Assembly: GCF_944390845.1 (NCBI RefSeq)
Contig: NZ_CALXRM010000003.1
Span: 1 to 64,000 of the forward strand
From: an uncultured Brachyspira sp.
GTDB lineage: Bacteria > Spirochaetota > Brachyspiria > Brachyspirales > Brachyspiraceae
Length of the DNA: 64,000 bases
Direction of reading: 5' to 3'
The notes beneath the pieces are model-generated. The model did no database searches. It saw nothing but the letters and a program-made list of their open reading frames with translations, and had not been told where the DNA came from. Position numbers and translations under genes: made by a program. Position 1 is the first letter of the stretch. Every line of letters starts with the position of its first letter. Below, piece by piece: positions 40,821 to 52,671 of this stretch.

Positions 40821-40913
40821 GTTAGTCGACCAATTGGCACCCTTACAGTTGGTATAACAATAATAAGCGAGCCGACCAAGTAGGCACCTTTATAGGTGGC
40901 ATAACAATAATAG
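40821..40913 (+). promoter_or_regulatory. Two tandem hairpin leader elements (5' of cement gene)
   Basis: Unit 1 (40821-40865) and unit 2 (40866-40913) each start with (G)AGYCGACCA, form a hairpin and end with ATAACAATAATA. In unit 1 ACCAATTG pairs with CAGTTGGT; in unit 2 CACCT pairs with AGGTG. The last unit runs into TAGGAG and the ATG at 40922. Members of the leader family described in the findings. Confidence 0.7.
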
Positions 40914-40921
40914 GAGTTCGA

Positions 40922-41290
40922 ATGGCACAAGGTTCTATAATAAAAGCTGGTATTCATAGCGATGAAGCCAATTTACCAAAAAGAGGATTTCCTGTATCAA
41001 TAAAAGATGATAATGGGAAAGGAGTTTTTTCACTTTATAGTGAAGGTTCAGTATTTATAGGGGTTGCTTTGGAAGATGCATTCTCTTATAAAGAATTCGG
41101 ATTAAAGCCAAATACAATATCAGTTTGCTATGATGGAATAGTTAATGCAGTTGTAGCTGAAAGTGTTATAGCTGGCGATATTGTAACGGCATCAGATAAA
41201 GGATTCAAAAAATCATTAGACGGACATGGAGTAGGAATAGTTATAAGAGGCGGAAGCAATTATGCAGAGATACTTTTGAAATCTGTATGA
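40922..41290 (+). CDS. Capsid cement/decoration protein (DUF2190-like)
   Basis: 122 residues, small beta-rich and glycine-rich. The C-terminal segment (AVVAESVIAGDIVTASDKGFKKS, then GVGIVIRGGSNYAEILL) resembles DUF2190 capsid-stabilising proteins. Placement between protease/scaffold and major capsid is right for this role. Translation begins behind TAGGAG delivered by the hairpin leader element. Confidence 0.6.
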   Translation: MAQGSIIKAGIHSDEANLPKRGFPVSIKDDNGKGVFSLYSEGSVFIGVALEDAFSYKEFGLKPNTISVCYDGIVNAVVAESVIAGDIVTASDKGFKKSLDGHGVGIVIRGGSNYAEILLKSV

Positions 41291-41402
41291 TTGTATTGTA
41301 ACTAAAGTTTCAAAAATATATCAAACATAAAAATCTTGAATATATTATTTTTGTAATAATCTTAAATATTTTTTAAAATAATTTTTATTAGCAACAAAAT
41401 AA

Positions 41403-41520
41403 AGTGAGCTGTCCAGTAGGTAGCCTTACAGTTGGTATAACAATAAATATAGTGAGCCGTATCAGTCAGCAACTGAAGTTGCTGGCTAATATTAGCGAAG
41501 GCGAACATAACAACAATAGG
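41403..41520 (+). promoter_or_regulatory. Two tandem hairpin leader elements (5' of capsid gene)
   Basis: Unit 3 (41403-41449) shares the CCTTACAGTTGGTATAACAA block with unit 1. Unit 4 (41451-41520) has a longer perfect stem, CAGCAACT/AGTTGCTG at 41467-41484, and ends CATAACAACAATAGGAG, supplying the ribosome site for the capsid ATG at 41528. Confidence 0.75.
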
Positions 41521-41527
41521 AGTAATA

Positions 41528-49467: not shown

Positions 49468-49713
49468 ATGTCAAAAGTTATTATGCAAATAGAAATAGAT
49501 GATGAATTAAAAAAAGATGCAGATAAGCTTTTTAGTGAATTGGGTTTGGATACAAATACTGCTATTAATATATTTTTAAAGAAATCTATTAATAATCAGG
49601 CAATACCATTTAAAATTGAAAAAGATAGTTTTTATAATGATGAGAATATTAATATATTAATACATAGATATAATAATTTGAAAAAAGGAGAATGTGTAGA
49701 GATTAATTATTAA
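49468..49713 (+). CDS. RelB/DinJ-family antitoxin
   Basis: 81 residues: a ribbon-helix-helix N-terminus (MQIEIDDELKKDADKLFSELGLDTNTAINIFLKKSI) and the NNQAIPFKIE segment are classic DinJ. Normally it represses its own operon and neutralises a YafQ/RelE toxin. AAGGAG precedes the ATG. No toxin gene follows: the next gene, 15 nt on, is on the other strand. Confidence 0.88.
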   Translation: MSKVIMQIEIDDELKKDADKLFSELGLDTNTAINIFLKKSINNQAIPFKIEKDSFYNDENINILIHRYNNLKKGECVEINY

Positions 49714-49728
49714 TATAAATTATTTTTA

Positions 49729-50463
49729 TTAATCATTGTTATTTAAAAAATTATCAATATTTTCTGTACTGTTATAAAATTCTTTAGCTTCGTTAATATT
49801 TTCATTTAATAATTTTTTTATATATTCGTTTAAATCTTTTAATATTTCATTTCTTTCTTTTATGATACTCATTTTGGATGCAGCATTATAAGCTTCTTTA
49901 ACTGCTGAAAAACCTTCCTCATATCTTTTTAATTTAAGAAGTATTAAAGCTTTATTTATATATCCTTTTTTAAAATATAATTCAGTATCTATTTCTATAA
50001 GTTTACTATAATTATTCAAAGTTTCTTCATACTTTCCAATGCTTTCATAATATAGTCCTTTATTAAAATATACACTGCTGAATTTTGAATCTAATTGCAA
50101 TGCATAGTTATAATCATTTATAATATCTTCTTCTTTATAATTTAGTTTTGATTTTGTCATAGCTCTATACAGATAAGAAGATTTATAATTTTTATTTAAA
50201 CAAATAGATTTATTAAAATATTCTAAAGCCTCATTATAATTTCCATCTATATAATTTTTAAATCCTTTATCAAAAACTTTTTGGTAAGAATTATTTTCTA
50301 TAAATTGTTTTGTATTTTTTATTTCTTCATAAAAATTTTCTAATCCTAAAATATTTTTATTTATTAATTCTTTAGTGCGTTCTTTAATTGCATTAAGTTC
50401 TTTTTCTTTATTAATATCATATTCAATATTATCTTCTTCATAAGATAAAAGTTTCTCTATTCC
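49729..50463 (-). pseudogene. C-terminal part of a frameshifted TPR gene
   Basis: About 244 codons open in one frame from 50463 to 49729 (GIEKLLSYEEDN ... FLNNND), containing at least two TPR units. The frame lacks its own start and ribosome site; an internal ATG at 50160 is the only candidate. It continues the upstream 620-residue TPR protein if one A is removed from the A8 run at 50464-50471. Either a real frameshift, a phase-variable tract or a sequencing error. Confidence 0.8.
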
Positions 50464-52300
50464 TTTTTTTTATAAATGATAATCCTTCATCACTTTTATT
50501 TAATTTGCAGTATATAAATCCTTTATCAGTATAAGCCTTTATAATATAATAAGTATTATTATTCAATTCTATTATTTTATTATAATCTTCTAAAGCTTTA
50601 TCATAATTTTTTATATTCTCATAAAGTAAAGCCCTTCTATATAATAGTTCTGCATTTTCACTATCTCTTTTTATAAGCTCGTTATAATCTTTTATAGCTT
50701 CTTCATATCTATTTAAATCGGTTAATAATTTTGCTCTGTTGTTATATGCTGTTAAATTATTATTGTCTAATTCTATTGACTTGTTAAAATCTTCCAATGC
50801 TTCTTCTAAATTATTTTCTAAATATTTCATGTATCCTCTATTATTGTAATAGTAGGATTTATTTTGATTTAATTCTATTGCTTTGTTGTAATCTTCAATA
50901 GCTTCTTTATTTAAATTTAATCTGCTTTTTGCTATGGCTCTGCTGTAATAAGCTTCATCATAATTGGGATTAAGTTCTATTGCTTTTGTAAAGTCCTCTA
51001 TTGCTTCTTTATTAAGATTTAAACCAAGTTTTGAAAGAGCTCTGTTCTGATATGCTAAACTATAATTAGGATTTAACTCTATAGCCTTATTATAATATTT
51101 AATAGCTTCTTCATATTCTTCTAAATTATGCCTGATAAGAGCAATATTATTATAGCATATATCATAGTTTGGATTTAATTCAATAGCTTTGTTATAACAT
51201 TGAAGTGCTTTATCATATTGATTCATTTCATAATATGATAAACCTATATTATAATAAGCGTTATAATGATTGTTATCTAATTCCAAAACTTTTTTATAAT
51301 ATTTTTCTGCTTCATTATATTGTTTTAGAAAATGTTTTGATATGCCAATATTATTATAGGCTTCTATATAGTTTGGATTAATTTCTAAAGCTTTATTAAA
51401 ATATTGAATAGCTTCTTCATAAAATCCCATATCATTTTTTACATTACCTATTTCATTATAGGCATGATAATTTTGATTATCTATTTCTAAAATCTTATTT
51501 AAAGTTTCAAGGCATTTTTCTTTATTGCCTAAATTAGATTCCATTTCATAAATTTTAAAATAAGTGTTTATATTATTTGGAGACATTTCTAAAGCCTTAT
51601 TTAAATACTCAGATTCTTTATCAATTAAACCTAAGTAATGATATGACAATGCAATATTATAATGGGCATTTAAATATTCTGGATATAATTCAATGGCTTT
51701 ATTATAATCTTTGATAGCTTCTTCATAGAGTCCAAGCTGAAATTTTGCAAGTCCTCTGTTATTGTAAATGTATGTAATTGAATCATCTAATTCTATAGCT
51801 TTATTATAATCATCAATTGATTCTTTATAAAGAGATAAATAATATTTAACTATTGCTCTTTCAGCATAAAGTTCTGGATCATCATTTTTTAATTCAATAG
51901 CTTTGTCATAATCTTCAAGAGACTTTTCATATAATCCTAAATAATTTTTTGATAAACCTCTGTCAGCATAAATATAAGGATCATCGTTTTTTAATTCTAT
52001 GGCTATGTCATAATCTTTAATAGCTTCTTCATATAAAGCTGAATAATGTTTTGATAAAGCTCTATTAACATAGATGTAAGGCTCTGTATTATTTAACTCA
52101 ATAGATTTATTATAATATTCTATTGCCTGTTTATATAATCCTAAATTATGTTTGTTTAAACCTATGAGATTATAAGTTTTATAATTATCGCCTTGATAGA
52201 ATAAAATTTTCTCAAGGCATTCTATGGATAACTCATAATTTTCATTGTCAAAGGCTTCTTTAGCTTTATCAAATAATTGTTTAATAATATCATCAGCCAT
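50438..52300 (-). CDS. Large TPR-repeat protein, truncated by frameshift
   Basis: 620 residues, almost entirely about 17 TPR units of 34 residues (consensus YEEAIKDYNKAIELNPNY). No signal peptide or TM helix. The last 12 residues (KRNRETFIL region) arise from the shifted frame after an A8 tract; the true product is probably about 860 residues through to 49729. Four leader elements lie upstream (52309-52671). Confidence 0.88.
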   Translation of the reverse strand: MADDIIKQLFDKAKEAFDNENYELSIECLEKILFYQGDNYKTYNLIGLNKHNLGLYKQAIEYYNKSIELNNTEPYIYVNRALSKHYSALYEEAIKDYDIAIELKNDDPYIYADRGLSKNYLGLYEKSLEDYDKAIELKNDDPELYAERAIVKYYLSLYKESIDDYNKAIELDDSITYIYNNRGLAKFQLGLYEEAIKDYNKAIELYPEYLNAHYNIALSYHYLGLIDKESEYLNKALEMSPNNINTYFKIYEMESNLGNKEKCLETLNKILEIDNQNYHAYNEIGNVKNDMGFYEEAIQYFNKALEINPNYIEAYNNIGISKHFLKQYNEAEKYYKKVLELDNNHYNAYYNIGLSYYEMNQYDKALQCYNKAIELNPNYDICYNNIALIRHNLEEYEEAIKYYNKAIELNPNYSLAYQNRALSKLGLNLNKEAIEDFTKAIELNPNYDEAYYSRAIAKSRLNLNKEAIEDYNKAIELNQNKSYYYNNRGYMKYLENNLEEALEDFNKSIELDNNNLTAYNNRAKLLTDLNRYEEAIKDYNELIKRDSENAELLYRRALLYENIKNYDKALEDYNKIIELNNNTYYIIKAYTDKGFIYCKLNKSDEGLSFIKKRNRETFIL

Positions 52301-52308
52301 AATTTATT

Positions 52309-52671
52309 CCTATTATTGCTATGCTCGTCTCCGCCTATAATTAGCAAATAAATAAATTTATTTGCTGGCTCCGACTCGCTTTATATTATTATTGCTATGC
52401 TTGTGACGAAGTGCCGCATGTAATTAGCTAGTGAGTAAACTCACTAGCTGTCTTCGACTCGCTTTTATATTTAAAGTCTAGTATTAAAAAATTATTATTG
52501 CTAATAAAAATTGTTCGCTCTAAGGCTCTGCCAAGTAAACTTGCCAGAGGCTCACAATTTTTATAATTAGCTTTACAATATTTAAAAATTATTATTTCTT
52601 ATTATTGTTATGCTAGTCTATGCCTAAAGGCTTAACTTAATAAATTAAGTTAAGGGCTTCGGCTCGCTTTT
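52309..52671 (-). promoter_or_regulatory. Four tandem hairpin leader elements (5' of TPR gene)
   Basis: On the minus strand, each unit has GCGAGYCGRAG-like start, a stem and GCATARCAATAATA. Stems: AGCAAATAAA/TTTATTTGCT (52343-52366), AGCTAGTGAGT/ACTCACTAGCT (52426-52449), CTCTGCCAAG/CTTGCCAGAG (52526-52549, one mismatch), CTTAACTTAA/TTAAGTTAAG (52631-52654). Stem sequences differ but pairing is kept. The unit nearest the gene ends AATAATAGGAATAAATT before the ATG at 52300. This fills the 399-nt gap. Confidence 0.8.

Follow-up and report, generated by a model that had tools for sequence, protein, structure and literature searches.

Several families of short bacterial repeats are transcribed as intergenic hairpins that affect nearby mRNA, among them NEMIS/Correia, ERIC and the modular BOX elements, and these families conserve their sequence. 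In the Bacillus cereus group, the repeats bcr1–bcr3 resemble miniature inverted-repeat transposable elements. The bcr repeats are dispersed and intergenic, and many are transcribed as part of untranslated regions (UTRs) or operon spacers; bcr10 and bcr18, which are located in 5′ UTRs, share the feature of a conserved secondary structure, and bcr3 correlates with mRNA decay (PMC3446304). In T7, the R1.1 signal is a hairpin with a single cut near its 3′ side (PMC4858673). Here we describe a family of rod-shaped hairpins in a stretch of 64,000 nucleotides (hereafter the window; contig NZ_CALXRM010000003.1, positions 1 to 64,000) from an uncultured Brachyspira sp. (assembly GCF_944390845.1, hereafter the home genome). 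We read these rods as Brachyspira-specific, cis-acting mRNA modules that occupy 5′ leaders and the spacers between cistrons and determine ribosome access to the next cistron, a reading to which we assign a probability of about one half.

Like bcr10 and bcr18, the rods are structured, dispersed repeats with conserved structure and covariation, and we infer that they are likewise transcribed. They differ from the bcr repeats in that their helix sequence is free, all share one common shape, types are exchanged at one slot and this slot precedes the Shine-Dalgarno sequence; the organism is another one, and no sequence relation is expected. Rod arrays are modular as in BOX, but rods conserve shape, whereas NEMIS/Correia, ERIC and BOX conserve sequence. 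The RNase III signals of T7 are also intergenic hairpins (~60 nt), while the tandem GA/GA mismatch, UUUA loop and A-rich tail are peculiar to the rods. REP/REPIN elements resemble the rods as short multicopy extragenic palindromes absent from most divergent promoters. However, the rods come without the Y1 transposase of such systems (RAYT) in 26 Brachyspira genomes, are strictly oriented with transcription and leave their helix sequence free; an assignment to REP/RAYT was rejected on the missing transposase, on the lack of helix sequence conservation (108 distinct apical duplexes) and on the absence of a GTAG-type tag from the listed conserved segments. Finally, a subtype of the rods at 47 kb pairs with the Shine-Dalgarno sequence, as do RNA thermometers and other leaders that hide this site, whereas the common rod type leaves it free.

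The copies share one fold, which we first recognised by comparing copies of the tail motif in the home genome side by side. A lower helix (P1) in which any sequence is tolerated is followed by a tandem GA/GA mismatch, 2–3 bp and an apical stem (P3) of ~10 bp, unconstrained in sequence and closed by a UUUA loop; below the apical stem, the 3′ side carries a bulge of 7–8 nt (consensus NNUUAUA), and 3′ of the rod comes a single-stranded tail, AUARCAAUAAUA, and then the Shine-Dalgarno sequence. The sequence of a typical copy is GC-GA-GUC-GAA-GCC-(10-bp stem, UUUA loop)-UUAUUGUA-GGC-GUA-GAC-GA-GC-AUAACAAUAAUA, its outer strands pairing except at the tandem GA/GA and a second symmetric loop. Among 190 copies, the UUUA loop is present in 139, and GA occupies the 5′ mismatch in 161 and the 3′ mismatch in 153. 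Their 108 distinct apical duplexes comprise 942 Watson-Crick, 51 G-U and 8 A-C cells. This excess of G-U over A-C indicates that it is the sense strand that folds and on which selection acts, and the spacers that flank the copies have a sense-strand GC skew (0.13) too small for mutation alone to account for it. The sense strand is thus under selection, most simply in the form of RNA.

The same geometry emerged from a scan based on shape only, which required a lower helix and a short helix separated by any 2×2 mismatch, then an apical stem closed by a loop of 4 nt, with 4–10 nt bulged out on the 3′ side. Twelve of its 25 matches had GA/GA, and in these the bulges were all 7–8 nt, P3 was 8–10 bp and the loops were mostly UUUA; three locally shuffled controls gave one GA/GA match among their commonest classes. 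Types with a long A+T-rich P1, namely type B (52493–52565) and the ATAAAAATTGT/ACAATTTTTAT and GATAAAC/GTTTATC forms, share the core, and we count them as the same family because that core is identical. A kink-turn was considered and rejected, since the tandem GA is present but the adjoining 3-nt bulge is not.

Statistical support comes from the tail as well as from the helices. With at most 1 mismatch, the 3.43-Mb home genome has 63 occurrences of the tail AGCATARCAATAATA, compared with 6 for the reversed pattern. In an alignment of 31 copies, 92.9% of cells were paired (68% when shuffled), both sides had changed in 132 cells (36 when shuffled) and the covariation score was 0.674, against 0.210 for shuffled and 0.08–0.14 for slid partners. 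For 83 distinct copies taken from other genomes only, 94.3% of cells were paired, double changes numbered 312 versus 78 and the score was 0.584 versus 0.183 shuffled and 0.06–0.09 slid; this alignment was fitted to the structure and leans towards it, while the earlier MAFFT alignment was not so fitted. The covariation is overwhelmingly beyond chance in both sets, with the shuffles read as an imperfect control because the copies are related, and with the counts read as counts and not as probabilities. An initial annotation of this DNA had noticed that pairing is kept while the stems change and had proposed a covariation check, and covariation is seen in two sets. Together these data show that the constant part of the family is its shape and A-rich tail, and that helix sequences drift or are exchanged with pairing kept.

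All 13 places named in that annotation were inspected in the window sequence and contain, as it had counted, at least 13 copies: six full rods, four tandem copies of the Shine-Dalgarno-hiding subtype with the same core, and three short derivatives. Two covariance models were used, R1 built from the 31 copies and R2 from other Brachyspira genomes only, and the six full rods were found by both (E 1e−4 to 1e−18 with R1; 2e−7 to 4e−18 with R2). The three short derivatives retain head and tail without the long stem, and their folding improves on that of shuffles little or not at all (z −0.7 to −1.8). The copies are as follows.

40819..40865, + strand: short derivative; head and AUAACAAUAAUA tail retained, small CCAA/UUGG stem, long rod gone; covariance-model match not significant, folding z −1.7
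40864..40912, + strand: short derivative; small CACC/GGUG hairpin, tail entering the GGAG of the cement-like gene; R1 24.8 bits, R2 24.0 bits (E 0.01), folding z −0.7
41401..41448, + strand: short derivative that precedes the rod of the capsid leader (repeat family D19); R2 13.6 bits (E 2)
41449..41518, + strand: full rod, tail entering the GGAG of the capsid gene; R1 56.8 bits (E 3e−10), R2 64.1 bits (E 1e−11), fold −21.5 kcal/mol, z −3.8
45043..45113, + strand: full rod upstream of the tail-tube-like gene, start not directly adjoining; R1 81.2 bits (E 1e−15)
47004..47071, + strand: Shine-Dalgarno-hiding subtype, tandem copy 1 (repeat family D12)
47083..47151, + strand: Shine-Dalgarno-hiding subtype, tandem copy 2 (D12)
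47164..47232, + strand: Shine-Dalgarno-hiding subtype, tandem copy 3 (D12)
47245..47313, + strand: Shine-Dalgarno-hiding subtype, tandem copy 4; in P1, CUCCUU paired with AAGGAG of the gene at 47322
52600..52670, − strand: full rod, first in the array ahead of the TPR gene; R1 78.8 bits (E 4e−15)
52493..52565, − strand: type-B rod with long A+T P1, common core and tail UUAGCAAUAAUA; R1 31.9 bits, R2 45.5 bits (E 2e−7), fold −22.7, z −4.0
52387..52465, − strand: full rod with an additional insert in the 3′ strand; R1 58.8 bits (E 1e−10)
52311..52382, − strand: full rod, tail entering the ribosome-binding site of the TPR gene; R1 94.2 bits, R2 93.7 bits (E 4e−18)

The tail runs into a Shine-Dalgarno sequence and ATG, as first described, in most copies but not at 45043 and 52600. 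A G-rich stretch, GGGGTGGGCGGGCGGGGGTG, lies just upstream of the rod at 45043 (45012–45030) in this genome of 27% GC.

The home genome holds about 100 copies (103 matches), 100 of the 103 matches being intergenic. Arrays between codirectional genes are sense in 39 cases and antisense in 3; an independent set from other Brachyspira gave 55 and 3, for a combined bias of 94 sense to 6 antisense. The distance from array end to start codon peaks sharply at ~10 nt and falls between 6 and 16 nt in 20 of 43 cases in the home genome and 27 of 67 in other genomes, although the open reading frames (ORFs) were called by a simple script and individual distances may be wrong. By their position and orientation before ribosome-binding sites, the rods match what is expected of cis-acting 5′-leader RNA; covariation, sense orientation and the ~10-nt spacing all agree with the structured 5′-leader RNA that had been proposed. 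The genes behind the rods in the window are the following.

40922..41290, + strand: cement-like gene (weak Pfam Phage_cement match under the cut-off, E 0.009)
41528..42571, + strand: gene named capsid in the initial annotation; conserved in 21 of 26 Brachyspira, no match in Pfam or PHROG
45160..46557, + strand: tail-tube-like gene (weak Pfam Phage_tube_2 match under the cut-off, E 0.003)
47322..47678, + strand: gene of 118 aa that follows the Shine-Dalgarno-hiding rods; orthologues present in 21 of 26 Brachyspira, no family match in Pfam or PHROG
50438..52300, − strand: TPR protein gene behind the four-rod array (Pfam TPR families, E 4e−104)

TPR genes at 24642–25401 and 50162–53560 contain DNA repeats of 102 nt (34 aa).

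Within the window, the elements stand only ahead of phage-type and TPR genes, as had been stated, but this does not extend to the genome. Phage or gene transfer agent (GTA) genes behind rods encode capsid E, prohead protease, a tape-measure-like protein and tail tube, and host genes behind rods include pgk, serA, rpe, selB, purF, ribH, flavodoxin, lrgB, a PEP-utilising enzyme and diol-dehydratase reactivase. The expected enrichment is seen before gene starts but not before late phage genes specifically. The proposal that a GTA or prophage leader was copied to a host gene is not supported, given the many copies before diverse host genes and a capsid leader that is without a rod in several other Brachyspira.

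Across the genus, R1 matches were found in 22 of 26 Brachyspira genomes, with 14–79 in most and zero to few in the rest. Strong matches in named records come from B. alvinipulli, B. hampsonii, B. innocens, Brachyspira sp. G79 and uncultured Brachyspira, and two viral records (L307 and L312) carry copies. With R2, none of 367 non-Brachyspira spirochaete genomes matched and all 22 matching genomes among the 393 were Brachyspira, in a search whose large-set filters lose weak matches. The family is best read as specific to Brachyspira, with distant relatives possible given these filters. An 18-nt tail pattern, scanned against genome and viral collections, gave many chance matches outside Brachyspira that the covariance model dropped; three weak covariance-model matches outside the genus (L268, L220 and L214) had been preselected by the tail and were taken as chance. 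An Rfam 15 scan of the window returned nothing at the gathering threshold except tRNAs, and a literature search found no paper on such a repeat in Brachyspira, subscription journals lying mostly outside that search. As far as Rfam and the literature searched extend, this points to a family not previously described, in keeping with the first impression that it has no name.

How might the rods act? In the common type, the rod would fold upstream sequence away while AUARCAAUAAUA-GGAG stays free, and the freed segment would serve as a ribosome landing (standby) site; given such a free site, the rod would insulate the following gene's start. In the 47-kb subtype, the lower helix would take in the Shine-Dalgarno sequence, so that the rod acts as a brake. 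There, the four copies (47004–47313) have P1 strands CUCCUUAUAUUUUUA / AAAAAAAUUAAGGAG, copy 1 having CUCGUU, and the predicted fold places the Shine-Dalgarno of the gene at 47322 inside the P1 helix of the last copy. Comparable leaders precede the orthologous gene in at least 9 other species, in which P2 varies between GC/GC and AC/GU, P3 is CUAUG/CAUAG or UUAUG/CAUAA, and P1 in two species is without one base on both strands. In G009, a single P3 pair differs, and the Shine-Dalgarno stays unhidden in the fold predicted for it. The retention of this subtype at an orthologous gene, with paired changes, is the clearest sign in the sequences that the rods may bear on translation.

Several observations weigh against control of ribosome access. 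Four of the 26 Brachyspira genomes are without rods, and genes whose orthologues have a rod can be without one; some rods are found where two genes converge, with no start codon near; and the genes behind rods have many functions, with no regulon visible. The start region is predicted to be more open with an adjacent rod than in other genes (0.61 versus 0.47, p 1e−4), but the difference is modest, the A-rich tail accounts for part of it, and starts inside operons are among the controls. It is in line with a rod that would control ribosome access and falls short of proof.

We also compared the leaders of capsid, cement, pgk, serA, lrgB, a permease and the reactivase gene across species. At the pgk slot, the apical stem is AGCAAAUAAA in some species and AUCUGCCAAAC in others; the capsid slot holds type A, type B or the GATAAAC type; the serA slot holds several tandem rods in places, and its UCC/GGA in some species corresponds to GCC/GGC in others. 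Some orthologous slots hold no rod, and those occupied mostly end in an ARCAAYAAUA-like tail and then GGAG. Small extra hairpins are inserted in rod loops, the helices staying intact. Unlinked copies can be 90–97% identical over ~72 nt with flanks at background identity (e.g., the window rod at 45043 and L083:3047), which indicates dispersal as a discrete unit, while other unlinked pairs share longer flanks, suggesting that part of the spread was by larger composite units. The modules thus multiply, as seen in tandem arrays, dispersed near-identical copies and type exchange at one site.

Two further features were seen. In the gap-pgk spacer of many Brachyspira (L169–L188), a conserved terminator-like hairpin (AAGGGTG...CACCCTTTAAATTTTT) lies upstream of the rods, and pgk may depend on read-through of it. 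A second intergenic repeat family (ACTTTGGCGAAGCCCGCCTGTGGCG...) occurs in the window at 22258–22326, 42806–42846 and 48108–48148, and pieces resembling it (GCCTAAGGCGGACAAAGT) are inserted in apical rod loops within the serA leaders of other species.

The main rival to control of ribosome access is an intercistronic processing signal like those of T7, in which RNase III or another double-strand nuclease would read the rod regardless of helix sequence and cut at the 3′ bulge; a hairpin would then protect the 3′ end of the upstream mRNA, and the downstream mRNA would begin with a short open leader. The T7 R1.1 hairpin RNA is indeed cut by RNase III at one phosphodiester (PMC4858673). The fixed geometry with free helix sequence speaks for such an enzyme, but other shape readers fit free helix sequence too. 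Processing would also suit the 92 of 97 elements that follow a gene and share its direction, some of them at 3′ ends with no following gene, where a role in translation explains nothing. Tandem GA/GA and a UUUA loop are not known to be requirements of RNase III. The Shine-Dalgarno pairing at 47 kb is left unexplained, and we consider processing an unlikely account of the family.

Mobility raises a second rival, a selfish dispersed repeat, a small hairpin that depends on its pairing in order to move and lies near gene starts because insertions are tolerated there. It would explain the patchiness of the family, from copy numbers of 0–79 per genome within one genus to near-identical unlinked copies with background flanks, tandem arrays and type exchange at one site. 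The small mobile element that had been suggested at the outset is to this extent borne out by dispersal as a discrete unit and by copy number and type differing between related species at one site, but no mover of the REP type was found: the Y1 transposase (PF01797) was absent from all 26 Brachyspira genomes (control positive in 5 of 14 known genomes), and reverse transcriptase (RVT_1) was present in 7 of 26 but neither in the home genome nor in most element-rich genomes. No classical inverted repeats were seen at the rod termini. Moreover, the 94:6 sense bias between codirectional genes and the compensatory changes at orthologous sites imply a constraint beyond transposition, and the spacing peak at ~10 nt also speaks against a purely selfish repeat, which we regard as quite improbable. 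Function and dispersal may both be true.

A single-stranded DNA hairpin of the REP or integron attC kind, with selection on the DNA strand and not on RNA, would produce the same strand-specific pairing with tolerated G-T. It is very improbable given that orientation follows transcription, that the Y1 enzyme is missing from the 26 genomes and that the subtype's pairing with the Shine-Dalgarno has meaning only in mRNA; a likeness to attC was set aside on orientation and a differing layout, no attC scan having been made. Intrinsic terminators or attenuators are scarcely credible, for although the rods are stable hairpins in spacers, some directly following stop codons, an A-rich tail and no T run follows them, and a terminator scan of 38–54 kb gave 5 sites (3.9 expected), none of which was a rod on its own strand.

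Elsewhere in the window, positions 1–4400 hold a CRISPR array of more than 60 repeats (period ~67 nt, repeat including ATTTATATTCCAGTATGGATAGATTAGAAAC), followed by a run of minus-strand ORFs (4477–12810). The neighbouring genes 32729–33448 and 33490–34293 are tandem duplicates (stretches 78–88% identical), and a gene with an IrrE-like Peptidase_M78 domain (38871–39506, E 8.5e−8) lies near the phage-like genes.

Returning to the rods as modules that set ribosome access, their fixed internal features suggest that the shape is read by a protein. We tentatively consider it possible, if on the doubtful side, that they form a genus-wide post-transcriptional system in which an RNA-binding protein or nuclease reads not the sequence but a shape made up of GA/GA, a spaced bulge, a 10-bp stem and a UUUA loop, and in which rods of unrelated sequence, some with the Shine-Dalgarno inside, are exchanged at fixed slots ahead of genes as interchangeable expression modules. 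If true, this would give a genus of intestinal spirochaetes a pervasive layer of regulation. A leader slot with different, several or no rods in close species is an uncommonly clean natural experiment on an RNA module defined by shape only, whose effect on expression should be directly readable there, and it raises the question of how well-paired hairpins of unrelated sequence originate and are swapped at one site. With the covariance models, these elements, which currently lack annotation, can be marked in all Brachyspira genomes.

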